A DNA stretch of 36,375 nucleotides from Promethearchaeota archaeon (lineage in GTDB: Archaea > Asgardarchaeota > Lokiarchaeia > Sigyniarchaeales > SOKP01). Below, piece by piece: positions 3,390 to 34,349 of this stretch (its first letter is position 1; every line of letters starts with the position of its first letter). The translations under genes and the position numbers were made by a program. The notes under the pieces are model-generated. The model was not told the DNA's origin and did no database searches. It saw nothing but the letters and a program-made list of their open reading frames with translations. Location of the stretch: positions 88,739 to 125,113 of the forward strand of contig JAGXNS010000001.1 of the NCBI GenBank assembly GCA_019894855.1, in the 5' to 3' direction.

Positions 3390-3755
3390 TTAATCCATTT
3401 TAAACCTATATTTGTTGTATGCCGCGCGAGTAAGACCGACATAATTATCTGAGATTCTATAAGATAATTTTCCGTTTATCATGCTTTTTTCAACGTAATC
3501 GTTCTTTAGATGGTGGTTTAAAGAGTGAATCATTGTCCCTAAGGTTACAGCACCCATATATCTCATTTTTTGTTTAGCTACTCTTATCAAATCCAATTCA
3601 GTATGCCAATTCCCATCAAGTAAAGTCATTAAAATTTCATTTTTTACTGGAGTTTTAATGTCTTTTATTTTATTGAACAGACCTGAATAGTCAGGTTTAT
3701 AAAAATTTTTTAGAATTTTGCTTTGTTCAAAACTAGTATTTTGAGGTTCTTCCAT
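3390..3755 (-). CDS. Small winged-helix-like protein
   Basis: An unrecognised 121-aa protein whose middle reads like a winged helix-turn-helix. A helix (KNEILMTLLDGNWHTELDL) is followed by a likely recognition helix (AVTLGTMIHSLNHHLKN) and a short beta wing (GKLSYRISDNYVGLT). This suggests DNA binding and a transcriptional role, but it is inferred from sequence pattern only. The start is chosen at the second of two in-frame ATGs (3755, not 3761), because a GGAG at 3764-3767 is 8 nt from the second and only 2 nt from the first. It lies downstream of and on the same strand as the actin-like gene, with 131 bases between them that contain a perfect palindrome, so autoregulation is possible. Confidence 0.7.
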   Translation of the reverse strand: MEEPQNTSFEQSKILKNFYKPDYSGLFNKIKDIKTPVKNEILMTLLDGNWHTELDLIRVAKQKMRYMGAVTLGTMIHSLNHHLKNDYVEKSMINGKLSYRISDNYVGLTRAAYNKYRFKMD

Positions 3756-3820
3756 TTTCATTTCTCCACTTGAGATGAAATTATACTAAGATATAATATC
3801 AGAATAATATTTTTAAAAAA

Positions 3821-3886: not shown

Positions 3887-5002
3887 TCATAGAATATCTT
3901 CAGGGATACCTTCATTAAAATATTTCGCTCTGCTTATCCAATTCTGCTCGAATTCAGGAATCATTGCTAAAATTGATCCTCCAACCCAAACTGAGAAAAC
4001 TCGTTCCCGGGGTGCTATTATTTTGATGATTTGATTCTTCTTTTTACGTCGCGCCAGCTCTAATTCTAATTCTTGATAGATTCGAGATTTGAGATTTGGA
4101 AACATCGAAGACCCTCCCGATAAAAAAATGTTATTTAATAAATCTGGACGGACATCTAAGTCACACATTTCAATTACATCCAAGATTGCTTCTGGGAGAG
4201 AAATTTCTTCTAATTCGATTGAAGGATTAAACAACAATTCCGGAACTTCGAATCGCTCTCTAGCTAAAGAAATTGTAGAACCATCAGGTAAGGAATACTC
4301 TTTTTCGTATTGTTCAACTCTCTTCAAATCTTCTTTATAATCAAGGGAAACAAAACACGCTTTTTCCTTTAAAGCTCTGACAAGCCCTCTTCTTATAGAA
4401 GAATCTGCTGAATAACCTTTTGTACCTAATATTTTTTCCATATACCTTGTTAGCGTTCTTCCACCAATTTCAAGAATTCTAATTGCGTGATCAAGTTTAT
4501 AACCTTGATAGATTGGGACTATTCTTGTTAGACTATCTCCGATCTCTACTATCAAGCCCGTTTGAAATCCACCAGCATACAGAGTAAGCATGGAATCTAA
4601 TACAGGATAAAACGCATTACATTGATAATGCTCTAGAAATAATTTAAATAGTATTTTTAAATTATTGCGAGGAAACAATGGATGTGTAGCAAATAAGACA
4701 TTTACTAAACTAGGGTCGACTCTTAAATTATAGAAAATGTAATCAATTATTTTCTCGAAAGAGACCCAGTCTTGTATTACGCCCTTATCAATAGGGTATA
4801 GCACTTTGTATAGTCCTAAAGATTGAATCTCATCTCCGACGTAATAGTCATCTTGTCGAACCATTCCATACTCGTAATCAATTTGTCTATACTTGGGCTT
4901 TCCTACGATCGTGAAGAATACTTGACTTGGCATATCTTCGCCAGCGAAACCCGCTTTTGCTGAAAATTGTCCAATGTCTAAAACAACAGTAAGATTGCCC
5001 AT
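3887..5002 (-). CDS. Actin-family protein (Asgard actin-related protein)
   Basis: A 371-aa actin-fold protein, colinear with eukaryotic actin (375 aa) from end to end. Conserved parts are phosphate loop 1 (DIGQFSAKAGFAGED, with D9 and K16 matching actin D11 and K18), the YVGDE and YPIDKG segments, VPIYQGY, the SLPDGSTI region, LSGGSSMFP, and the C-terminal KIIAPRERVFSVWVGGSILA. It probably binds ATP and may polymerise. Residues that drive hydrolysis in actin are changed: Q137 is D136, D154 is E153, H161 is R160, and S14 is Q12. It therefore looks like an Arp-type paralogue rather than a standard lokiactin. The start is uncertain: an ATG at 5002 matches the actin N-terminus, and a TTG at 5011 is in frame. 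A PIG-L deacetylase gene lies upstream on the same strand. Confidence 0.93.
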   Translation of the reverse strand: MGNLTVVLDIGQFSAKAGFAGEDMPSQVFFTIVGKPKYRQIDYEYGMVRQDDYYVGDEIQSLGLYKVLYPIDKGVIQDWVSFEKIIDYIFYNLRVDPSLVNVLFATHPLFPRNNLKILFKLFLEHYQCNAFYPVLDSMLTLYAGGFQTGLIVEIGDSLTRIVPIYQGYKLDHAIRILEIGGRTLTRYMEKILGTKGYSADSSIRRGLVRALKEKACFVSLDYKEDLKRVEQYEKEYSLPDGSTISLARERFEVPELLFNPSIELEEISLPEAILDVIEMCDLDVRPDLLNNIFLSGGSSMFPNLKSRIYQELELELARRKKKNQIIKIIAPRERVFSVWVGGSILAMIPEFEQNWISRAKYFNEGIPEDIL

Positions 5003-5071
5003 AATATCCAACTAATTTTAGCAATATATTCGCTTATATAATTAACAATATTTAATCTTTTTATATCTATA

Positions 5072-5818
5072 CTATACTAATAAAAGTTTAAGTGGCGTAT
5101 AAGTAGTTTCTGGTATAAAAGCTTCCCCATACGTCGAATTTATTTCATTACCTCTTAAAATCGCAGTATCTTCCGCCCACTCCATTACTCTTTCTAAAAC
5201 TTCTTTCTGAGTAAGGTAGGCAATATTAAATATCTCTTTTTTCTTATCCCAAAATTCTTCAATATCTACTATAACAAAAACTGAACTCTCAATATATTGA
5301 AATTTACACGAAGGTCCTTCGTAATAATACACGCCTAATGGAGTCCAGCTTCTTTCATATCCTCCATAAGCTTTACCTGTTGAAGAATGATAAATAGCTT
5401 CTCTTGAGATTAGGGCCAAGTTTCGATGCACTCGATGAAAATCAGAATGATGAGGCAATAAAATAACTTGAGGTTTAATGTCTCTTATAAGATTTGTTAT
5501 CTTGGAGATTTTTTCTCGAGTTATCTCCATATTAGGAAATTCTAATTCGATAATGTCACAGTTCAACGATGATCGAACTGAATCAAGCTCATGTTTTCTT
5601 TGATTTATAATTCCTTCTTTTTGATTATTTTTTGCATATCCACCAATACCACTTGTTGCAACCACAACGATTATTTTTGAACCTAAAGACTGGTATTTTA
5701 GAAGAGTACCTCCACAAGATATTATTTCATCGTCTGGATGACCAGCTAACACCATTATGCGTTTAGGAACGACGATCGGTATATTGTTTTCGCAGATGAT
5801 AGAATTGTTTTTGTCCAT
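5072..5818 (-). CDS. PIG-L/LmbE-family N-deacetylase
   Basis: A 248-aa zinc-dependent deacetylase of the PIG-L/LmbE family, whose members remove N-acetyl groups from GlcNAc conjugates such as GlcNAc-inositol or GlcNAc-malate. The zinc and catalytic motif GHPDDE sits about 27 residues in, after a short extension. The second signature, HHSDFHRVHRN, supplies the distal zinc His. The Rossmann-like core is complete, with strand IIVVVATSG and helix RKHELDSVR. No signal peptide or membrane span is visible, so it is probably cytoplasmic. It starts at an ATG (5818) and lies 69 bases upstream of the actin-like gene on the same strand, so they may be co-transcribed. The substrate cannot be read from sequence; glycolipid or low-molecular-weight thiol precursors are possible. 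Confidence 0.88.
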   Translation of the reverse strand: MDKNNSIICENNIPIVVPKRIMVLAGHPDDEIISCGGTLLKYQSLGSKIIVVVATSGIGGYAKNNQKEGIINQRKHELDSVRSSLNCDIIELEFPNMEITREKISKITNLIRDIKPQVILLPHHSDFHRVHRNLALISREAIYHSSTGKAYGGYERSWTPLGVYYYEGPSCKFQYIESSVFVIVDIEEFWDKKKEIFNIAYLTQKEVLERVMEWAEDTAILRGNEINSTYGEAFIPETTYTPLKLLLV

Positions 5819-5947: not shown

Positions 5948-6637
5948 TTAATCTCCTCTCATGATCTTCTTTAAACGATTTAATTCCTCTAACATTTCAT
6001 CTCGAAGAGAACTTAAACCTCCTCCTGCTTGAGTTGCTGTTGCAGGGGATGCAGGGGGTGCTCCTGGAGCTCTAGCTGGAACGCCCATTGCCGGTGCTGC
6101 CGGGGGCGTTGGTCTCTTAGCAAATGTAGGTGTTTGTACAATTCCTGAACTGGGAGCTTTAGGGGGTATACCACTCGAACTGGGAGGCAATTTTGGCGCC
6201 GGAGGTAAATTGGTTCGTTTAGGAGGTCCACCTGCGCCGGGTGCTTTAGGAGGTCCACCAATTCCAGGTCTCTTAGGAGGACCCCTCCCAGGAACTTTAG
6301 GGGGTCCACCTACAGTTGGTGAAGTTACAGCTGCGGTAGCTGGAGGTATTTCTTGTGCTGGAGCAGGACTACCACTTAATAAACTAAATAAAGTGCTCGC
6401 CGCTGCAGTTTTAGCCGTACCACCCACAGGTGCTACGACTTTCTTAGAGGATGTGCTAACAGTTTTTACTCCTTGTTCAAGAGAAACATCTTTCAAATCT
6501 TTCAAGGCTTTATTTAATGATTTTTTAAAATCAGTAATCCCTTTAACCGTCTCTTCCAAATCGTCGCTTAAAGAGGTTAAACCCTTTTTCATAAAATTGA
6601 CGACTCTCTCAATCTTCTTATATTCTTTCGAAACCAA
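5948..6637 (-). CDS. Proline-rich low-complexity protein with helical ends
   Basis: A 229-aa protein in three parts, not recognised as a known family. Residues 1-60 are charged and helical, possibly coiled coil (SDDLEETVKGITDFKKSL). Residues about 70-205 are a disordered Pro/Gly/Ala-rich tract with repeated GGPPKxPG units (four or more), then PPKAP and PPA runs. Residues about 207-229 form an amphipathic helix, SLRDEMLEELNRLKKIMRG, whose LKKI ending recalls actin-binding WH2 motifs; an ESCRT-type MIM-like helix is an alternative. Poly-proline plus such a tail, two genes from an actin homologue, suggests a scaffold or actin-network partner, but this is inference. The TTG start at 6637 is uncertain: a GGAG lies 13 nt upstream, and an ATG encoding M16 is an alternative. 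The local G+C rise comes from the Pro/Gly codons. Confidence 0.8.
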   Translation of the reverse strand: MVSKEYKKIERVVNFMKKGLTSLSDDLEETVKGITDFKKSLNKALKDLKDVSLEQGVKTVSTSSKKVVAPVGGTAKTAAASTLFSLLSGSPAPAQEIPPATAAVTSPTVGGPPKVPGRGPPKRPGIGGPPKAPGAGGPPKRTNLPPAPKLPPSSSGIPPKAPSSGIVQTPTFAKRPTPPAAPAMGVPARAPGAPPASPATATQAGGGLSSLRDEMLEELNRLKKIMRGD

Positions 6638-6903
6638 GGTAGTTCATTTACTCCAAAATTTTAATCATTTTTTTTAAAAGAATACTATGTAGCTATAGTA
6701 GTAATATAGTAGTAATTTATTAATTTATATTTTTATTTTTGTATAATATTTGTATCATAGTATTTCCTAAATTAAATTCAATGCTTCAAAATTTTTCACA
6801 GTTAAAAATAAACTATTAAATGTTCCAAATCTAATATATTATATATCATATTTCATTTGTAATTTTAATAATTAGTATTCAATATAATAGGTGTATTAAT
6901 ATT
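6638..6903. other. AT-rich intergenic stretch
   Basis: This stretch lies between the proline-rich gene (minus strand) and an orphan open segment on the plus strand. It is very AT-rich, with runs such as TTTATATTTTTATTTTTG that could hold promoters for the minus-strand genes. No open frame of note, RNA gene or clear repeat is seen. Confidence 0.6.
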
Positions 6904-7167
6904 CCCAAGAGAGAACTCTTCATCAAGCGAGTATATGAAATTGTTAATGAGCTTAAAATTCCCTTAATTGACGAAAGAGTCTACGAAAAAGCTAACTTCA
7001 GCACTGGCGCTGCTATTGCTAAGATAGTGTTTAAATTTGAGGAAGACGAATCAGTTATTCGAGGTTTCTTAGGTTTAGCTGAGTATTTTCATACAGTCGT
7101 GATTAAAGTACGTGACCAATTCTATATCCCTCACGCTTCGATTCTCTTTCAGCTTCTTAGCTCGTAA
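6904..7167 (+). pseudogene. Orphan coding segment without a start codon, probable gene remnant
   Basis: An open plus-strand frame runs to a TAA at 7165-7167 and translates into protein-like sequence: IPKRELFIKRVYEIVNEL, then KANFSTGAAIAKIVFKFE, then a hydrophobic IPHASILFQLLSS end. Its G+C is visibly higher than the AT-rich flanks, as expected for coding DNA. The frame has no ATG or TTG. The only GTG is internal, at about 7027, and would leave 46 residues. Upstream the frame runs into low-complexity AT-rich codons and a TAA at 6832-6834. The simplest reading is the 3' remnant of a gene that lost its 5' part. A rare start codon, a frameshift or an intron are alternatives. I do not recognise the family. 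It is followed by T-rich sequence. Confidence 0.5.
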
Positions 7168-22766: not shown

Positions 22767-23702
22767 ATGAATAGCAATTACCGTGATCGATTAGTTTCTA
22801 AAGATAATAATGATCAAGATAATTTGCCCCCTAGTAAAAAAGTTAATTGTTGTCCAAACCCATCCATTGAAGAACGCGATGGGAATAAAGTTTGCTTAAA
22901 TTGCGGTATGATCGCAGAAAGAACATATGTGGGTAATGAGAGAAGAGCTTACACTGTAGAAGAGATACAGAACCGCCGAAGGACTGAGCCGAGGTGGCGG
23001 GACTTTGGACCGAGAACAATGCTCCCAAACACGAAAACAGATTCAAAAGGGAAATCAATAGGTCCTAAGGAGCAAGCTTTGTTTTCACGTTTATCAAAAA
23101 TTCAAAATTCTCTTATTTCAAGTATAGAACGTAACTTTTGGGAAGCTAAGCCCAAATTGAAAATGCTTACCTCAAAATTAAATATTCCTGAATACATATC
23201 AGAAACTGCGTGGAAGATTTATAGTATTGTAGCTAAGAAGAAATTAACAATGGGAAGGTCAATTAATGGATTTATTGCGGGATCTTTATACGCCGCGATT
23301 AGAGTCCATGATTTTCCACGATTATTAGACGAGGTTTGCGAAGCTTCGTTAACTCCTAGAAGAACTGTTCACAGAAGTCTCGCGATGATTATAAGAGAGG
23401 TACTTCCTAGTTTAGGTCTTAGATATCAGCCTATCACCGCTGAGAGTTTAGTTTTCAGGTTTGGTAACGAATTGAAACTCCCAATGAAAATCCAAAAAGT
23501 TGCAATCGACATGTTAAGAACTGCATCTAAGAACGGTTTACAGCGAACAGGGAAGGATCCGAAAGGGTTAGCTGCAGCGTGTATCTATATCGCAGCAAAA
23601 GATGGAGAAATAAGAAGAACACAATCTCTCGTAGCAGATATAGCTAAAATAACAGAAGTTACTTTACGTAGTAGAGCAAAGCAAATCAAAGGTAAGCTCT
23701 AG
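22767..23702 (+). CDS. tfb: Transcription initiation factor B (TFB), with atypical zinc ribbon
   Basis: A 311-aa archaeal TFIIB homologue that binds TBP-DNA and recruits RNA polymerase. The N-terminal ribbon has C28/C29 and C43-x2-C46 (CLNCG). The first ligand pair is adjacent Cys-Cys rather than C-x2-C/H, and the intervening loop is shorter than usual, so zinc binding may be altered. The B-reader/linker region is about residues 50-100 (WRDFGPRTMLP). Two cyclin-like repeats follow: about 125-210 (ISETAWKIYSIVAKKK, FIAGSLYAAIRV) and about 235-311 (VAIDMLRTASKNGL, GLAAACIYIAAKDG, TLRSRAKQIKG). It starts at ATG 22767; an AT-rich TATA-like stretch (about 22722-22740) precedes it. A second TFB-like gene lies 0.8 kb downstream. 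Confidence 0.93.
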   Translation: MNSNYRDRLVSKDNNDQDNLPPSKKVNCCPNPSIEERDGNKVCLNCGMIAERTYVGNERRAYTVEEIQNRRRTEPRWRDFGPRTMLPNTKTDSKGKSIGPKEQALFSRLSKIQNSLISSIERNFWEAKPKLKMLTSKLNIPEYISETAWKIYSIVAKKKLTMGRSINGFIAGSLYAAIRVHDFPRLLDEVCEASLTPRRTVHRSLAMIIREVLPSLGLRYQPITAESLVFRFGNELKLPMKIQKVAIDMLRTASKNGLQRTGKDPKGLAAACIYIAAKDGEIRRTQSLVADIAKITEVTLRSRAKQIKGKL

Positions 23703-24535: not shown

Positions 24536-25489
24536 TTGAATAATTCTAATAAAGAAATAACTGAATGCGAACACAAGAACTTAAAGCTGGAAGGTGGATA
24601 CTATGTCTGTCAAGATTGTGGTTTAATTGATAAAGATAAAATCGCTTTCGAGATAGATCCGTCCCTTGACTTTTATTCTGAATCTCAATTAGATTACGAA
24701 AGAAAAATAAGAATAGGTGATTCAAGAGCTACTCAGGATCCAAAAACAAGAGCTCGTTTTGAGCAAATTAAAACTTTATCCAAGTGGTTTAAGGATTCTC
24801 AGAGTAGTTTTACCGAACAAAAGAAGACTATTAGCATGCTCAAAAGTTACGGTATTGGACTAAGTATTGACAAGGTTAAATATAACGAAATAAAGGACAA
24901 ATATCTCCGGTATAACAAATATCATAGGCAGACCTACGAAAATATGGTAATTATATTTCTTGCAATTATTTGGATGGAAATAAAAGAAACTACAAATGTT
25001 AGGATTGAAGACTTCATTAAAGCGTCTAAAGATTTAGGTCACAAGATAAACAAAAAAATGCTCAACAATGCAATGCTAAAGGTTAAAAGAACGGATAAAA
25101 GGTTGAAGGGATATAAAAACGCTAATAATCTAGAAGAAGATATAAAAAATAAGATTAAAATTCTATTTCAAAAGGATTTAAACAATATCAAGTTTGAACG
25201 AGTTGAACAATATTTTTCCAGCGAATCAGATTACACCAAATTAAAGTTGGAAATGCAATTATTAGTAGCCAAAGTTTTACAGAAAATTACTTACGAGCAA
25301 ATTCAAAACGTGAACTACAAAGCTTTTACAGCAGGATTAATTTACTATATTGGACAGACGTTAGAGAATCGCAAGATTTTTACTCAAAGTATTGTCGAAC
25401 AAACAAGCAGATTTTCGAGCACAACTATTAGAAAAAAATATCATATGTTCCTTGATATATTAGGAAATCCTTTAGAATTTGATCTTTAA
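24536..25489 (+). CDS. Divergent TFIIB-like protein
   Basis: A 317-aa protein with TFIIB architecture but strong divergence. The N-terminal ribbon is complete: C11-x-H13 and C25-x2-C28 (CEHKN, VCQDCGLI), typical of TFIIB-family zinc ribbons. It is followed by a reader-like charged region (residues about 35-95) and two helical parts that could be degenerate cyclin folds: about 125-205 (NMVIIFLAIIWMEIK, NNAMLKVKRTDK) and about 235-317 (EMQLLVAKVLQKI, FTAGLIYYIGQTLEN, SSTTIRKKYHMFLDI). The second repeat keeps the pattern of the TFB recognition helix. It is probably a TFB paralogue or a promoter-specific factor. The start is TTG 24536, with no ATG nearby. P-type ATPase genes follow on the same strand after 105 bases. 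Confidence 0.75.
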   Translation: MNNSNKEITECEHKNLKLEGGYYVCQDCGLIDKDKIAFEIDPSLDFYSESQLDYERKIRIGDSRATQDPKTRARFEQIKTLSKWFKDSQSSFTEQKKTISMLKSYGIGLSIDKVKYNEIKDKYLRYNKYHRQTYENMVIIFLAIIWMEIKETTNVRIEDFIKASKDLGHKINKKMLNNAMLKVKRTDKRLKGYKNANNLEEDIKNKIKILFQKDLNNIKFERVEQYFSSESDYTKLKLEMQLLVAKVLQKITYEQIQNVNYKAFTAGLIYYIGQTLENRKIFTQSIVEQTSRFSSTTIRKKYHMFLDILGNPLEFDL

Positions 25490-25594: not shown

Positions 25595-28462
25595 ATGAAT
25601 CAAACCCAACCTCCTTCTGATATAGCCTATTCTCAATCAATAGATGATCTAATTACTGAGTTTCAGACAGATACTAGCAATGGTTTGCACGCTTCGGAAA
25701 TAGAAAACAATTATCTTAAATATGGCTACAACGAATTACCAAAGATTAGAAAATCATTGTGGAAAATATACCTTGCGCCGATCTTTAATTTCTTAATTAT
25801 AATTTTAATAATTTCGGGAGCAATTGTAATAATACTCGGAGATCAAACTTCAACAATCATCACTTTTGCAGTTGTAATTATTAATTCAATAACCGTGATA
25901 TCTCAACAATATAGAGCTCAAAAAGCTTTAGAAGCTCTTAGGAAAATTGGCGCTCTAAAAACGATTGTTTTACGAGACGGAATTCAATTCGAAATCCCTA
26001 CAAGAGAACTAGTTCCAGGAGATATTATTTTATTAGAGCAAGGTGATAAGATCGGTGCAGATGCGAGAATTCTTGAATTGACAAATTTAACCATTGACGA
26101 GGCTCCACTCACCGGGGAAAGCGAACCAGTAGAAAAAAACAATATGCCACTCAAAGATAGAGAATTACCTATTCAAAAGCAAAATAATATGGTGTTTATG
26201 GGAACCTACATAAATACTGGTAGAGGGAAAGCACTTGTCACCGGAACAGGACTTAATACTGAGATTGGCAAAATTTCAAATCAACTTAATGAAATGGGAA
26301 GTATTGAGGACATTCCACTAACGAGAAAGCTAAATAGGTTAGGGTATATCCTTGGAACGATAGTTATCATTTACCTAATCGTCTTAATTGTGTATAAATT
26401 TTCTATTTTGGGATTAGAAGGTTTATTTTTTGGTGATAATATAACTAACGCGATTATATCTTCTATATTAAGAGCAATGGGAATCATGCCTATTAACCTA
26501 CCTCTATTAACAACGCTCGTTCTCGTTACAGGGGTACTTAATATGGCTCAAAGTGGAGTAATCATCAAGAATTTGTCAGCAATTGAATCTCTTGGCCGTG
26601 TATCCGTAATATGCTCAGATAAGACTGGAACTATTACTAAAAACGAAATGACCGTTGAAAAATTTTGGATTAACAACAATGAATACGAAGTTACAGGTTC
26701 AGGATATGATCCTGAAGGAATCATTCTCGAAAATGGAAAGGAAATGAGCTTAAAGGAAAATCCTACGTTTATTAAATTCATTGATTCAAGCGTATTAAAT
26801 AATAACGCTAAATTAGTGTATGAAGATATTAAAGTCCAATTGAAAGAATCAAAAGAAATAGCAGTAAGAAAAGCTTTAGGCTCGCCAACAGAGGCTTCTC
26901 TATTAGTGTTAGCTGAAAAGGCTGGATACATTCCTTATGACGTGAAAAATAAATACTCAATATTGAAGGAGTTTTCGTTTAGTTCTGAAGTTAAGCGAAT
27001 GACTACCGTATGCAAACTTAAAGCAGATGGTGCTCATATTATTGCATTCTCAAAAGGAGCACCGGAGAAGTTCTTAGATATATCAAGCAAAATTGAAATA
27101 AATGGTGTAGAAGAAACATTTACCGAAAAAGTAAAAAACCTCTTAATCGATAAAATTCAAATTCGAGCGAACCAAGGATATCGAACTTTGGCTATTGGTT
27201 ATAGGAAAATCGAGGGTGAACAAGATTTTAAAAGACAAAAAGTTGAAAATGATCTTGTCTTCTTAGGTTTTGTTTCAATATTAGACCCTCCTAAACTTGG
27301 AGTGAAAGCATCAGTAGAGGAATGTGAGTCAGCCGGTATCAAAATTGCAATGATCACAGGCGACCATCCAGCTACTGCCAAAACTATTGCGGCTCAAATG
27401 AGAATTTACAAGGAAGGGGATTTAATCGTAGAAGGTTCAGATATTAAAAATCTAAACGACGCTGATTTCAATAGAGTGTCTGTATTTGCGAGAGTTAATC
27501 CTTCAGATAAAGAGATAATAATAGAAAAGTATCAGTCAGAGAATCACGTCTGTGCTATGACGGGGGATGGTATTAACGACACTTTAGCTTTAAAACTAGC
27601 GAATGCTGGGATAGCTATGGGTATTATGGGTACCGATGTTGCTAAGGAAACTGCTGATATGGTTGTTAGCGACGATAACTTCACATCTATAGTTAGAGGT
27701 GTAAAAATTGGTCGTGGATTATTCGCGAGAATACGAACCATCATATTCTTTTTTATCTGCTTAAATCTAATGGAATCAGTTATTTTTTTTGCCTATGAGT
27801 TTGTCCCATTATTTGATTTGTTTAGTTCAGAGTGGCAACATATTTATATCTACGCAATAGTTCATTCTTTACCTGCTTTAGCTCTAGTGGTTGATAAACA
27901 TCCAACAGATGTGATGAAAGAACATCCCAGAGACGAAGAACAACTATTAAACAAGAATATGTGGATTATGTTGGTATTCCAAGCGTTATTGATGGGAATT
28001 GGTTTGGTATTAGTTCTTCAATTTACATTAGGAGGCGCAATCCCGTTAAATGGGTGGAACCAAAATCCTTCTATTAGTTATATTCCTGTTGGATCAACAC
28101 AACCCGAATTGTTAGCACAAAAAGCAAGAACTATGTTTATCACCACGCTTTACATTGTTGAAACTACCTTCATCTGGACATTTAGACGACCTAACAAATC
28201 ACTTATCAAAAGCCTTAAAAACGAATTTTCGCTAACCTTGTTCGTAATAAGTTCATGTACGCTCGCTCTGCACATCTTATTCGTTTTCTTCTCAAACACC
28301 GTTAATTACTATGTGAACGATGAATTTGGCTTAGATTTACAAATTAACTTTCTCTTTTTAAGTGGAACCGATTGGATTATATGTATATTGCTAGCACTAC
28401 CAGGCTTAATGGGAATAGAAGTTTTTAAATACATTGCGAGAAGAAAAAATATTCTTTTCTAA
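25595..28462 (+). CDS. P-type ATPase, cation-pump-like, copy 1
   Basis: A 955-aa P-type ATPase with a Cation_ATPase_N-like N-terminus, about ten transmembrane helices, an actuator domain with LTGES, the phosphorylation site D342 (DKTGTITKNE), a nucleotide-binding domain (FSKGAPEKFL, KGAP motif) and the hinge motif TGDGINDTLALKLA. The layout is that of P2 (Ca2+, Na+/K+) pumps. The ion-binding helices differ: helix M4 has PINLP (P299) instead of the PEGLP of Ca2+ pumps, and M6 has His (H757 in IVHSLPALAL) where SERCA has Asp800. The substrate is therefore not predictable; the PIxxP motif recalls P3A proton pumps (PIAMP). It ends in a four-helix C-terminal membrane domain. It starts at an ATG. 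A paralogue follows after 182 bases. Confidence 0.9.
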   Translation: MNQTQPPSDIAYSQSIDDLITEFQTDTSNGLHASEIENNYLKYGYNELPKIRKSLWKIYLAPIFNFLIIILIISGAIVIILGDQTSTIITFAVVIINSITVISQQYRAQKALEALRKIGALKTIVLRDGIQFEIPTRELVPGDIILLEQGDKIGADARILELTNLTIDEAPLTGESEPVEKNNMPLKDRELPIQKQNNMVFMGTYINTGRGKALVTGTGLNTEIGKISNQLNEMGSIEDIPLTRKLNRLGYILGTIVIIYLIVLIVYKFSILGLEGLFFGDNITNAIISSILRAMGIMPINLPLLTTLVLVTGVLNMAQSGVIIKNLSAIESLGRVSVICSDKTGTITKNEMTVEKFWINNNEYEVTGSGYDPEGIILENGKEMSLKENPTFIKFIDSSVLNNNAKLVYEDIKVQLKESKEIAVRKALGSPTEASLLVLAEKAGYIPYDVKNKYSILKEFSFSSEVKRMTTVCKLKADGAHIIAFSKGAPEKFLDISSKIEINGVEETFTEKVKNLLIDKIQIRANQGYRTLAIGYRKIEGEQDFKRQKVENDLVFLGFVSILDPPKLGVKASVEECESAGIKIAMITGDHPATAKTIAAQMRIYKEGDLIVEGSDIKNLNDADFNRVSVFARVNPSDKEIIIEKYQSENHVCAMTGDGINDTLALKLANAGIAMGIMGTDVAKETADMVVSDDNFTSIVRGVKIGRGLFARIRTIIFFFICLNLMESVIFFAYEFVPLFDLFSSEWQHIYIYAIVHSLPALALVVDKHPTDVMKEHPRDEEQLLNKNMWIMLVFQALLMGIGLVLVLQFTLGGAIPLNGWNQNPSISYIPVGSTQPELLAQKARTMFITTLYIVETTFIWTFRRPNKSLIKSLKNEFSLTLFVISSCTLALHILFVFFSNTVNYYVNDEFGLDLQINFLFLSGTDWIICILLALPGLMGIEVFKYIARRKNILF

Positions 28463-28644
28463 TTGTCTTGAATAGTGTATTTTTGAATCTTTTCTATTAT
28501 TTTTTGTAAATTATTTTTAATAGCTAATATTATTAAATAAAAATACTATAAAATAAAAAGAAGAATTTCTATAGTATAGTTATAATTATTTTTTATCGTC
28601 AATTTTTTAATCAAAAATAAGATTAAATCCCGGGAGAATAGCTA

Positions 28645-31509
28645 ATGGTGGAAGAAATCTATTACAATATGGAGTTAAATCAGATTTATAAAAAATTTCA
28701 AACAAACTCAACTAATGGATTAACGAATGAAGAAGCCCAAAAAAGGCTTGAACTTTATGGATTTAACGAGATTCCAAAAGCTTCTAAAGGATTTATCAAA
28801 ATTTACCTCGCTCCTTTATTCAATTGGTTAATCGTAATTTATCTATTCGCTTCGTTAATATTGTTTTTAGCAGCAATCACAATGGGCGAGGGAAATTTAA
28901 TATTCGTCATGCTAACTTTAGGCATAGTGGCTCTCAATTGTATAGTCGCCATCATACAGCAATATAGAGCAACAAAAAAATTAAACGCTCTACGAGAAAT
29001 GACAGCACCCACAACCACCGTAATAAGAGACAGTCAAAAGGAGGATATTACGACAAAAAATGTAGTTGCTGGCGATTTACTAGTCCTAAAACAAGGAGAC
29101 CGAATACCTGCTGATGGGAGAATTATTCAATCTTCTAACCTAGAAGTTAACGAATCCAGTTTGACGGGAGAATCTGAGCCAGTTAGAAAAGCTCATGACG
29201 GAGCTGCAATAAAAAACGAGGACATAGCTATCGCAGAACGATTTAATATGGTGTACTACGGAACCTTTATTGCTACTGGTAATGCAACGGCAATATCCGT
29301 AAAAACAGGTAAAGATACCGAAATAGGAAAAATATCACAAGGTTTAGAAGATGCAGGAACAAGCGAGATTCCAATTCGAGAAAAAATGAATAATTTTGGT
29401 AAGTGGCTTGGGTTGATCGTTATTGGTTTTTGGTTTGTTATTCTCATGATTCTTTGGGGCGCTACAGGTGAGTTAGATATAGTCAAAAGTCTTAACTCTG
29501 CCATGGATCTACTACCTATCAATATACCACTCCTTGTAACAATTATTTTGTTAACGGGTGTTGTAACTATGGCCCGCCATGGTGTCATCATCAGAAATCT
29601 CGCTTCAGTAGACAGTTTAGGTCGAGTAAGCGTAGTTTGTTCGGATAAAACAGGCACTCTGACAAAAAACCAGATGTCTATTCAACATATATGGACAAAT
29701 GGTTCTACATATAATGTCTCAGGTAGTGGCTATAGTCCTGACGGAGACATAATATTAGTCGACGATCCGAAAAATTCTGTATTTGTAAAACACATTGATG
29801 ATCATCCTCAACTCAAGTTGCTTTTAACTTCAGGTTTCTTGAACAATAACTCTGCTTTGGTAAAAAATGAGATTGAAATATCAGGTAAAACTATCAATAA
29901 TTGGAAAGTAATTGGTTCTCCTACAGAAGGAGCGTTAATGGTTCTTTTTCAAAAGGGAATGGGGGATTATCTCTTAGAAGATTTTGATTACGTTAAAGAG
30001 CATCCATTTGATTCTAGAGTTAAAAGAATGACTAAAGTTTATAAAAAAGAGGGTATATATTATTCTTTTACTAAAGGTGCGAGCGAAATTCTGATTCCAT
30101 TGTGCCAAAAAGTCTTATTTAAAGACCAAGAGTTAGAATTTACAGATGAAATTAAAGATAAAGTCATAAAGATTTCGGATATCTACGCAGGACAAGGATA
30201 TAGAATTCTAAGTTTGTGTTATAAAAAATTGGATGCTATTCCACCAGAAGATGAGAAAAGTAGAAAGTTGTGCGAGTCGGATATGATTTACATTGGGTTT
30301 GTAACGATTCTTGATCCTCCTCGGGAAGGCGTGAAACAAAGCATTGAGCAATGTCACAACGCTGGGGTGGATGTAGTAATGATCACCGGGGATTCTCCCA
30401 CGACGGCAAAAGCTATTGCCCAACAAATCGCGATTATTAAAAACAAGGATGAAATTGTAGTAGAAGGAAAAGAAATAAAAAAAGTTAAATCGTTTTTTGA
30501 TTTTAGCAGAATCAAAGTGTTTGCTAGAGTATCTCCAGAGCATAAACAAGATATAATTGAAAAATACCAAGAAGCTAATCAAGTTGTGGCTATGACCGGA
30601 GATGGGGTTAATGACGCTCTAGCCTTGAATATGGCAGATGCAGGAATAGCTATGGGGATTCAAGGAACTGACGTTGCGAAAGAAGCGAGCGATATGGTAA
30701 TAAGCGATGATTCTTTTACATCGATCGTTACAGGGATCGAACAAGGGCGTGGCATTTTTGCTCGCATCAGAGCAGTTGTGTTTTTCTATATCTGTATAAA
30801 TGTTTTTGAAGGCATTGTCCAATTTATATTATCTGTTATATTGAATTTCCCCTACTTTTTAGACGACGCATTCTATTACCAATGGATTTTCCTCTCAATA
30901 ACGGTTCACATTTTTCCAGGTTTAATTCTCACCTTTGACCGTAATTCTAAAGATTTAATGAATCAAAAACCTCACGACGAGGAGGAAATCTTATCAAAAA
31001 ATACCGTTGTCCTTTTATTTATTTTTGGAGCTTTATTGGCTATTAGTATGATCGTCGTTTATTTCACGACACTTTTAGGTCCTGAAGTTTCTGTTATCAA
31101 TTTCGGAGATTTAAACGAAGCCTATTTGTTTTCTCCCCTTACATTCCCAGATGGAAGTGGAATTTCTCTAAACGAAGCTAAAACTCTTACTATGTTGATG
31201 GTTACTATTTTCATCTGCGAGTCATTTTTAGTGTTACAAATTAGGAGACCTAACAAATCACTAATCATGAGTATTAAAGAAGATAGCACCCGATTTATGT
31301 ATTTACTAATTGGATTCTTGTTTGCACTGTTTCTTGCACTCATGTATATTCCCGGAGTCCAAGTAACGCTCGCTGATTGGGGTTTAAACTTCAGATTTAT
31401 GTTCCTTACGGGATTAGACTGGTTAGTGTGTTTCTTAATTTCGCTTATCTGTATTGTTTCCTTCGAATTCGTTAAATATATGGCAAGACGATCTGACATA
31501 TATTTCTAA
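28645..31509 (+). CDS. P-type ATPase, cation-pump-like, copy 2
   Basis: A 954-aa paralogue of the preceding ATPase, with the same layout: an N-terminal cytoplasmic domain (NSTNGLTNEEAQKRLELYG), actuator LTGES, phosphorylation site D334 (DKTGTLTKNQ), FTKGASEILI in the nucleotide-binding domain, TGDGVNDALALNMAD hinge, and a C-terminal four-helix membrane domain. Helix M4 has PINIP (P291), and M6 has His (H755 in ITVHIFPGLI) in place of the SERCA Asp. So the pair share the same unusual membrane motifs and may transport related substrates, or work as a pair. It starts at ATG 28645, with GGGAG about 9 nt upstream. A T13 run lies directly after the stop. Confidence 0.9.
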   Translation: MVEEIYYNMELNQIYKKFQTNSTNGLTNEEAQKRLELYGFNEIPKASKGFIKIYLAPLFNWLIVIYLFASLILFLAAITMGEGNLIFVMLTLGIVALNCIVAIIQQYRATKKLNALREMTAPTTTVIRDSQKEDITTKNVVAGDLLVLKQGDRIPADGRIIQSSNLEVNESSLTGESEPVRKAHDGAAIKNEDIAIAERFNMVYYGTFIATGNATAISVKTGKDTEIGKISQGLEDAGTSEIPIREKMNNFGKWLGLIVIGFWFVILMILWGATGELDIVKSLNSAMDLLPINIPLLVTIILLTGVVTMARHGVIIRNLASVDSLGRVSVVCSDKTGTLTKNQMSIQHIWTNGSTYNVSGSGYSPDGDIILVDDPKNSVFVKHIDDHPQLKLLLTSGFLNNNSALVKNEIEISGKTINNWKVIGSPTEGALMVLFQKGMGDYLLEDFDYVKEHPFDSRVKRMTKVYKKEGIYYSFTKGASEILIPLCQKVLFKDQELEFTDEIKDKVIKISDIYAGQGYRILSLCYKKLDAIPPEDEKSRKLCESDMIYIGFVTILDPPREGVKQSIEQCHNAGVDVVMITGDSPTTAKAIAQQIAIIKNKDEIVVEGKEIKKVKSFFDFSRIKVFARVSPEHKQDIIEKYQEANQVVAMTGDGVNDALALNMADAGIAMGIQGTDVAKEASDMVISDDSFTSIVTGIEQGRGIFARIRAVVFFYICINVFEGIVQFILSVILNFPYFLDDAFYYQWIFLSITVHIFPGLILTFDRNSKDLMNQKPHDEEEILSKNTVVLLFIFGALLAISMIVVYFTTLLGPEVSVINFGDLNEAYLFSPLTFPDGSGISLNEAKTLTMLMVTIFICESFLVLQIRRPNKSLIMSIKEDSTRFMYLLIGFLFALFLALMYIPGVQVTLADWGLNFRFMFLTGLDWLVCFLISLICIVSFEFVKYMARRSDIYF

Positions 31510-31659: not shown

Positions 31660-32982
31660 ATGAGTAAATCAATTGTTTCTATTGTTAAATACAAGAAAGG
31701 ATCAGGTTCTGTTTGGAAAGCCGTCAAACTTGCAAATGGATTCGAAAAACTCGACTCAAACGCTAAAGTTTTTATAAAGCCTAATTTGGTCTATTGGAAT
31801 CGACATTGTAATTTTCCAAAGTGGGGTATGCTCACAACTTCGAGCGTAATGGAGGAAATTTTAATATTATTAAAAGAGCATGGTGTAACTGACATTACTA
31901 TCGGAGAAGGAATAGTTACTGAAAGCCCAAAAGATAGAGAAACATCTAAAGACGCATTCGAAAAACTTGGATACAACGCTCTTAAGGAACGATATGGCGT
32001 TAAAGTATACGATATTTTTCAACGACCATTTGAAAAAGTAGAGTTAGCAGAAGGGGTATCCGCAAAAATGAATGCAGATATGCTTCATTCAGATTTTTTA
32101 ATTGATGTTCCTGTTCTTAAAACTCACGCGCAATGCGTTGTTAGTTTAGGGTTAAAAAATCTGAAAGGTTTGATAAATATTCCATCTCGTAAAAAGTTCC
32201 ATGGGGACGATCCCAAATACACCTTACATTATAATGTATCACACCTTGCAGATAAAGCACCGCCTGGCCTTACAATCATCGATGGGATTTATACGCTTGA
32301 ACGAGGTCCAACTTTTGACGGTAAAGCTCATAGAAGCGATATAATAGTTGCTTCCAATAACATGCTCTCCGCGGATATGGTGGGTTCTAGTTTACTAGGC
32401 ATAGCACCTACTGCTGTTCCCCATTTGGTTCAAGCAGCTAAGGACAGAAATCGTCCAGTAGATTTATCAGATATTGAAGTCAAAGGAGAAAGCATAGAAG
32501 ATCTTGCCGTGCCCCATGGATGGGACTATATCTACAAAAATAATAATACGTTACCTCTTTCTTACGCAAAAGCGGGTATTGGAGGGCTAAGTTATCCAAA
32601 ATACGATGATACTATATGTACTTATTGCAGTTTTTACAATGCAGTTTTATTAATAGCAATTAAATCAGCGTGGAAGGGTAAGGATTTTGACAATGTAGAA
32701 GTACTTACCGGAAAAATCATGGAACCCTCTGAGGGGATGAATAAAACAATATTACTTGGACAATGCATAATCAATAAGCATAAGGACCATCCAAATATTA
32801 AAGAACTGATTGCAATTGATGGATGCCCTCCTGAAGTTGATAAAATACAAGACGCTCTAAGGCAAGCAGGAATCAGAGCACCTTCATATATTTTTAAGAA
32901 CATAGAAAAGGCCCCGTTGATCTTCATGCAGAAGTATCAGGGCAAGCCTGAATTTGAAGAACATTTTTATCAAATAAATTAA
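31660..32982 (+). CDS. DUF362-family protein, copy 1
   Basis: A 440-aa protein of the DUF362 family, whose function is not established. Family signatures are KVFIKPNLVYWN, DITIGEG, PVLKTHAQCVVSLGLKNLKG, SRKKFHGDDP and IDGIYTLERGPTFDGKAHR. Near residue 320 is a CTYCS pair, and other Cys (GQCIINK, DGCPPE) might form a metal site in the C-terminal third; no full ferredoxin domain is attached, unlike in some DUF362 proteins. There is no signal peptide, so it is probably cytoplasmic. It starts at an ATG. A close paralogue follows after 59 bases on the same strand, and each has its own AT-rich leader. Confidence 0.85.
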   Translation: MSKSIVSIVKYKKGSGSVWKAVKLANGFEKLDSNAKVFIKPNLVYWNRHCNFPKWGMLTTSSVMEEILILLKEHGVTDITIGEGIVTESPKDRETSKDAFEKLGYNALKERYGVKVYDIFQRPFEKVELAEGVSAKMNADMLHSDFLIDVPVLKTHAQCVVSLGLKNLKGLINIPSRKKFHGDDPKYTLHYNVSHLADKAPPGLTIIDGIYTLERGPTFDGKAHRSDIIVASNNMLSADMVGSSLLGIAPTAVPHLVQAAKDRNRPVDLSDIEVKGESIEDLAVPHGWDYIYKNNNTLPLSYAKAGIGGLSYPKYDDTICTYCSFYNAVLLIAIKSAWKGKDFDNVEVLTGKIMEPSEGMNKTILLGQCIINKHKDHPNIKELIAIDGCPPEVDKIQDALRQAGIRAPSYIFKNIEKAPLIFMQKYQGKPEFEEHFYQIN

Positions 32983-33041
32983 TTTTTAAAATACTTAATA
33001 ATCATTTCACTAATTATTTCAATAAAAAAAGGTGTAACTAC

Positions 33042-34349
33042 ATGAGTAAAAATTTAGTTTCTGTTGTTAAATATGAAGAACCTTTAGAATCTGTCCGAAA
33101 AGTAATTGAATTATCAAAGTTATTCGATGATTTGCCTAAGGATGCAAAAATTTTCATTAAACCCAACATTGTCTATTGGAGTAGTTTTCCTCATCCAAAA
33201 TGGGGTGTAATCACTACCTCTCGAGTCATCGAGGATGTTGTTGTGTTATTAAATGAATACGATATTAATGACATTACTATCGGAGAAGGATTTGGTACCC
33301 CAGAGGCCGCCGAAGACGCTTTTAAAAAATTGGGCTATAACAGCCTAAAAGAAAGATATGGTGTTAAGTTAGTTAATACAGGGGAAGGTCCATTTGAAAA
33401 AGTAGATATGGGATGTGAATTTCTCGTAAATTTTAGTTCCCATCCACTAAAGGCAGATTACATCATAAGTATTCCAACACTAAAAACTCATTCTCAAGCC
33501 CATGTAACTCTTGGACTAAAAAATTTAAAAGGATTTATCAATATAGCATCCCGTAAAAAGTTTCACGGTGCTGATCCTATTAAAAACTTACATTTTAATG
33601 TTGCAAAGTTGGCCAATAGCATTCCCCCCTGTTTAACCATTATTGATGGGATTTATACATTAGAAAGGGGTCCTACAATGGATGGAAAAGCGCATCGAAC
33701 CAACCTTTTAGTTGCATCAAAAGATGTTCTCTCAGCTGATCTTGTAGGCACAAAACTCTTAGGGATAGAGCCTTCTAGTGTACCTTCTCTTGTTCAAGCG
33801 GCAAAAGATAGAGGTAAGACAACTGAAATATCTGATATAGAGATTGTTGGTGAAGAAATAGAATCCGTAGCAAAACACCATGAATGGGAGTTTATATACA
33901 ATGAAGCTGGAGATCTACCTTTACCGTTTTATAAAAGACAATTTAAAGGCCTTAAATATCGAAAATACGATACAACTATGTGCACTTACTGCAGTGTAAT
34001 GAACGGGTTAATGCTAGTATTACTGAAGAATGCTTGGAATGGTGAGACATTTGGTGGTCTTGAATTTCTAACAGGAAAAATAATGGAACCATCTGCGGGG
34101 AATAATAAAACTATTCTTGTCGGTCAATGTCAATACAATAAAAATAAGGACCATCCGAATATAAACGAGTTAGTTCCTATTAAAGGATGTCCTCCATCAA
34201 TGGGAGATCTCGCAGACGCATTTGAGAAATGTGGTATAACGGTTAATCGCCAACTTCTTGAGGGAGGGTCCGATCAAGGGGGAGTTATTTTCCTTCAAAA
34301 ATACAAGAAAAAACCAGAATTTAAGGAAGAATTTTATAAAATCAAATAA
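33042..34349 (+). CDS. DUF362-family protein, copy 2
   Basis: A 435-aa tandem paralogue of the preceding gene, colinear throughout, with more than half of residues identical by eye. It keeps IFIKPNIVYW, DITIGEGFG, PTLKTHSQAHVTLGLKNLKG, ASRKKFHGADP, IDGIYTLERGPTMDGKAHR, CTYCSVMNG, VGQCQYNKNKDHPN and KGCPP. Shared cysteines at CTYC, GQC and GCPP support a common metal or redox site in the C-terminal part. A gap of about seven residues relative to copy 1 lies near the first Cys (RHCNFPKWG against SSFPHPKWG and after GEG). It starts at an ATG preceded by AAAGGTG (about 8 nt). Function unknown; neither gene is broken. Confidence 0.85.
   Translation: MSKNLVSVVKYEEPLESVRKVIELSKLFDDLPKDAKIFIKPNIVYWSSFPHPKWGVITTSRVIEDVVVLLNEYDINDITIGEGFGTPEAAEDAFKKLGYNSLKERYGVKLVNTGEGPFEKVDMGCEFLVNFSSHPLKADYIISIPTLKTHSQAHVTLGLKNLKGFINIASRKKFHGADPIKNLHFNVAKLANSIPPCLTIIDGIYTLERGPTMDGKAHRTNLLVASKDVLSADLVGTKLLGIEPSSVPSLVQAAKDRGKTTEISDIEIVGEEIESVAKHHEWEFIYNEAGDLPLPFYKRQFKGLKYRKYDTTMCTYCSVMNGLMLVLLKNAWNGETFGGLEFLTGKIMEPSAGNNKTILVGQCQYNKNKDHPNINELVPIKGCPPSMGDLADAFEKCGITVNRQLLEGGSDQGGVIFLQKYKKKPEFKEEFYKIK

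Follow-up and report, generated by a model that had tools for sequence, protein, structure and literature searches.

A near-invariant C-terminal helix of a proline-rich Asgard protein recurs on unrelated proteins and looks like an undescribed docking tag

The window, by which we mean the whole 36,375-nucleotide stretch of Lokiarchaeial DNA analysed here, encodes on its minus strand a proline-rich protein (PRP) of 229 amino acids (positions 5948–6637). The gene starts with TTG at 6637, and the homologues share this start site, where they use ATG, GTG or TTG. AlphaFold2 modelling with a 34-sequence alignment placed a long helix at residues 4–50 (6488–6628; pLDDT ∼80–94), which bears out the helical N-terminus that a preliminary description had anticipated. 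A second, short helix, modelled with low confidence at residues 75–88 (6374–6415), contains the family-conserved AASTLFSLLSG element, of which L83 and L87 are conserved in the family alignment. Residues 89–207 (6017–6373) form a disordered proline-rich linker, the length of which varies among relatives. The GGPPKxPG/PPA repeats described earlier are indeed present in the open reading frame, and an LPPAPKLPP element at residues 144–152 (6182–6208) recurs in the same or a similar form in most homologues of the window's own family (f1) and of family f2. The longest proline run in the window's PRP and most f1 homologues comprises two residues, and runs of five to seven occur in some f23, f25 and f28 proteins. 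The protein closes with the predicted docking helix at residues 208–227 (5957–6016), which was modelled with a pLDDT of ∼90. Its motif core extends from L211 to M226 (LRDEMLEELNRLKKIM), and the amphipathic helix ends LKKIMRGD, as previously noted. No family was named for the PRP or for its tail by Pfam, PDB-sequence, PDB-profile or PDB-fold searches.

Downstream of the PRP gene, on the same strand, lie a PIG-L family deacetylase (5072–5818; Pfam PF02585, 4.2e-21) and an actin homologue (3887–5011; Pfam PF00022, 1.9e-88), in agreement with the earlier placement of the PRP two genes upstream of actin. In family f1, 33 of the 34 loci have the PRP–actin pair, with both genes on one strand. In the other families read, however, no actin neighbour was seen beside the tail proteins, although the tail itself is conserved there. 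Conservation of the gene pair, which had been suggested as a check, holds, among the families read, in the window's family only. Beside actin, a 123-aa protein (3390–3761, minus strand) that looks like a winged helix by eye is conserved in family f1; it had no Pfam match over the cut-off. Divergent to the PRP gene, the plus strand carries a conserved neighbour of ∼88 amino acids with an alpha/beta fold, F0 (6901–7167), for which an ATT at 6901 is a possible start. The F0 frame of the window (6880–7167) is without an ATG, GTG or TTG start, and the F0 relatives have one of these codons at the equivalent position. Elsewhere in the window, we noted by eye two close TFB-like proteins (22767–23702 and 24536–25489), the second strongly diverged, and two large tandem cation-ATPase-like genes (25595–31509), which are followed by two DUF362-like genes (31660–34349).

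PRP matches were obtained in 77 of 117 Asgard genomes (the window's own and relatives; E≤0.001), generally at one locus per genome, a few of these matches being the tail alone on a different protein (L052, L058, L066). The named organisms retrieved in a scan of a public genome collection with the whole PRP were all Lokiarchaeota, and viral contigs gave no confirmed relative. While the linker varied in length, the final ∼20 residues were nearly constant and represented the most conserved part of the protein. A family-weighted comparison of 53 sequences from 18 families yielded the motif [IVLF]xxLRxEM[LM]xELxRLKx[LIF][MF], in which L1, M5 and R11 are invariant and E8, L12 and K13 are conserved at 95%. 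Only positions 3, 7, 10 and 14 vary freely; these make up one face of the helix and the remaining surface is mostly conserved, which is what docking in a groove would predict. In all PRP-type proteins the tail ends 2–8 residues before the C-terminus, and this spacing holds on soluble, single-pass and polytopic proteins alike. When the tail profile was searched across Asgard archaea, as the preliminary description had proposed, the tail proved to be widely conserved, with matches in 207 of 228 genomes and 57 of 62 genera at E≤1, a threshold at which some of the weakest matches will be due to chance. Strong PRP-type matches had E-values of 1e-8 to 1e-14, and membrane-type matches mostly of 1e-4 to 1e-7. 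A non-exhaustive search of the open-access literature found no description of this motif.

The main new result is that the tail is modular. In about ten other Asgard families it closes proteins that have one transmembrane segment, a helical hairpin (both assigned by eye) and a proline-rich stretch, so that the soluble N-terminal helix is exchanged for a membrane anchor; in family f26 it terminates a polytopic membrane protein, with tandem copies in one genome. The motif also occurs internally, namely in a Sec23/24-like protein (Pfam Sec23_BS, 8.8e-9; Sec23_trunk, 3.6e-8), in a Ras/Roc GTPase (3.8e-10) with a zinc domain, and in DUF4140-like and zinc-domain proteins, some of which have two or three copies. 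Since it serves as a terminus in these other families and is found inside yet other types of protein, we conclude that the tail is a modular docking helix, carried by the PRP on a disordered tether, and we regard this conclusion as well supported. Altogether, a near-invariant helix that recurs on unrelated proteins looks like a docking tag that has so far escaped description.

Several individual carriers deserve mention. The Lokiarchaeal Sec23/24-like proteins L087, L090 and L128 have their internal motif copy ∼80 residues before the end, and L087 displays zinc finger, trunk and beta-sandwich matches. In the zinc-domain proteins L092 and L093, two or three motif copies precede a CPxCGxxNH...CCNCF domain without a Pfam match. 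Protein L130 (genome G068) resembles the product of the window's 3390–3761 gene, and its long N-terminus, which is disordered, includes a motif-like YLRTQMLKELRTQ segment. Weak matches in ABC-transporter-like, ParA-like and radical-SAM-like proteins (L127, L131, L134) were judged to be chance. The identifiable conserved neighbours of the membrane-anchored forms, rpiA, PIN-ATPase and EndA, were set aside as partners, being housekeeping synteny, and a 235-aa neighbour once considered as ESCRT-III reads instead as ribose-5-phosphate isomerase.

Conceivably, the PRP is a tethered adaptor that recruits a shared hub, possibly a protein with an MIT domain (Vps4/ESCRT), a model that we favour tentatively and rate at somewhat less than an even chance. 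Its N-terminal helical part would anchor or oligomerise the protein, probably together with F0, which may share in the anchoring; the proline-rich stretch would provide a flexible spacer, and the near-invariant C-terminal helix would capture a hub protein that most Asgard archaea possess. The other families keep the tail but have the transmembrane segment and helical hairpin where the soluble helix would be, so that these proteins probably serve, as a rule, to keep the hub close to a membrane or scaffold. The Sec23/24-like and Ras-like proteins, which are of a trafficking type, would be brought to this hub by their own copy of the motif. Of this adaptor model, the conservation, terminal position and modularity of the tail, the domain swap and the linkage to F0 are observed; docking and the anchoring by F0 are inferences, and the least certain part is which protein the hub is. 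An MIT-type ESCRT partner such as Vps4, reached via a MIM1-like helix, would be the likeliest named hub, and we expect this best guess to hold about one time in three.

The tail most nearly resembles, in the same register but weakly, the MIM1-like helix at the C-terminus of Asgard ESCRT-III. The pattern [LMI]..E[LIMV].[KR][LIM][KR] was present in the PRP register at the C-termini of seven of ten Asgard ESCRT-III proteins, compared with 0.3% of background tails. This pattern was defined after the sequences of these ten proteins had been viewed, and the fair figures are therefore those of the PSSM test and of hhalign. The former gave p = 5e-5 for the motif versus the ESCRT-III tails when judged against all tails, and p = 0.012 against charged tails, although the ESCRT-III tails scored far under the motif itself. 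The latter gave P = 5.8e-4, and 2 of 307 decoy windows did better. On the other hand, the eukaryotic MIM1 consensus [DE]xxLxxRLxxL[KR] was matched by none of the 53 tails and also by none of the 10 Asgard ESCRT-III tails, and the tail has a near-invariant Glu at the position where MIM1 has Arg. The MIM-like alternative offered in the preliminary description is a somewhat better fit than the WH2 comparison, though as a candidate only. In favour of an ESCRT partner, three genomes of families f14 and f20 (only 77–81% complete) are without detectable ESCRT-III and have no convincing motif match, and actin is present in them; against it, in family f12 ESCRT-III and actin are both present and the motif is absent. 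An MIT match over the Pfam cut-off was obtained in 8 of 10 Asgard genomes, and not in the window's own genome, which is 84% complete.

About as likely as the MIT-type partner is a shared hub that is neither an MIT protein nor actin. On this account, to which we assign a slightly lower but still appreciable probability than to the adaptor model as a whole, the hub would be an uncharacterised pan-Asgard protein, and the resemblances to actin regulators and ESCRT-III would be coincidental. The conservation of the motif, which far exceeds its similarity to any known motif, argues for such a hub, as does the functional diversity of the proteins that carry it. However, no candidate was found, the identifiable neighbours of the membrane-anchored forms being the housekeeping genes named above.

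Actin is a less likely hub. The PRP could be an actin regulator, the C-terminal helix of which would, by analogy with WH2, bind the hydrophobic cleft of Asgard actin, with the linker feeding profilin-actin, so that the PRP and its membrane-anchored counterparts would act like VASP, WASP or an elongator; we consider this combined proposal improbable. It is in line with the same-strand actin neighbour in family f1, with the occurrence of actin in all strong motif-bearing genomes tested, with the VASP/WASP-like layout of an anchor, a proline-rich stretch and a C-terminal amphipathic helix, and with the likeness of LPPAPKLPP to the VASP peptide used with Heimdall profilin (PMC8410842). Yet the membership of the WH2 and WASP/VASP proteins put forward in the preliminary description could not be upheld. 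Pfam WH2 (PF02205) scored over the cut-off in none of the 117 Asgard genomes and had no listed weak match at the PRP, and similar weak matches appeared in bacterial controls. None of the 53 tails fitted a WH2-like pattern with LKK[T/V] spacing: the LKK lies inside the continuous helix 208–227 with no linker, and positions 14 and 15 vary; neither the second K nor T/V is conserved. The PRP also has no Pfam EVH1, GBD or CA domain. The profilins of Heimdallarchaeota LC3 and Thorarchaeota reportedly bind polyproline, as the preliminary description says of some Asgard profilins, and the Lokiarchaeal ones reportedly do not (PMC8410842); the proline runs of the window's PRP are limited to two residues. 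Moreover, actin synteny is restricted to one family, the genomes of f12, f14 and f20 carry actin and lack the motif, and the tail is also found on zinc-domain and DUF4140-like proteins. In our view, the PRP belongs in neither the WH2 nor the WASP/VASP class, and it should not be listed as an established MIM protein either.

F0 is linked to the PRP: in 60 of the 74 genomes with both, the two genes lie at most 6 kb apart, in nine families and in varied orientation. Its predicted fold is confident (pLDDT 90.6), with no significant PDB fold match, and neither Pfam nor PDB-sequence searches named a family for it. Within the phylum, 86 of the 88 F0-positive genomes belong to soluble-PRP families, the exceptions being two f8 genomes. 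Since F0 is nearly confined to these families, it may pair with the soluble N-terminal helix and so replace the membrane anchor. The same adjacency, confident fold and distribution could be taken to mean that, in the soluble-form lineages, the C-terminal helix has F0 as its receptor, which we regard as very unlikely: F0 was not found in most motif-bearing families, its distribution tracks the soluble N-terminal helix and not the tail, and in the two f8 genomes F0 has no soluble PRP as its neighbour. The F0 proteins of these f8 genomes (L186 and L187, from G195 and G196 of one genus) are close to the Lokiarchaeal form in sequence, and the gene was perhaps acquired by horizontal transfer. In a genome of family f4 (L096, G075), the PRP and F0 resemble those of family f17; this bin is listed at 9% contamination, and the finding may thus be a binning error. 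Least probable of all is a role of the C-terminal helix as a small element for self-assembly (coiled-coil) or membrane binding, as its amphipathic character and alternating charges might suggest, for it comprises only 16–18 residues, its hydrophobic moment is not unusual compared with shuffles (p = 0.16), nearly all positions off the exposed face are conserved, charged ones included, and the motif occurs internally beside folded domains.

Among known prokaryotes, Asgard archaea are the nearest relatives of eukaryotes, and to our knowledge little is established about how their ESCRT and actin systems, their GTPases and their coat-like proteins are wired together. The adaptor model may extend to an Asgard-wide linear interaction code, in which one docking helix would bring diverse carriers to one common hub, with an organising role for membranes or the cytoskeleton; we see this as a real possibility, though one a little short of even. 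The carriers of such a code would be the disordered tethers, membrane-anchored or linked to F0, and the Sec23/24-like, Ras-like, zinc-domain and DUF4140-like proteins. A single near-invariant peptide on several types of protein offers a direct experimental handle, as a bait of ∼20 residues could identify the hub.

Compared with known systems, the PRP is like the WH2 and WASP/VASP proteins in that its proline-rich linker leads into a short amphipathic helix with LKK and that, in one family, an actin gene lies nearby. It is unlike them in having no WH2 match, no linker before the LKK, no T/V residue, no EVH1, GBD or CA domains and, in the window's PRP, no long proline runs. The tail is like the MIM1 of the Vps2/24/46-class ESCRT-III proteins, which binds the MIT domain of Vps4, in being an amphipathic helix at the C-terminal end of a flexible tail, and it shares the [LM]xxE[IL]x[KR]L[KR] register with the Asgard ESCRT-III tails; it differs from MIM1 by the Glu in place of Arg at the core, by an extra conserved LRxE turn on the N-terminal side, and by its presence on proteins other than ESCRT-III. 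Lastly, in the CdvA E3B peptide of TACK archaea, the C-terminal peptide of an adaptor recruits the ESCRT machinery to the membrane. A PDB profile search gave no sequence match between the two, and it is in the proposed role of an adaptor that the PRP would be like CdvA.
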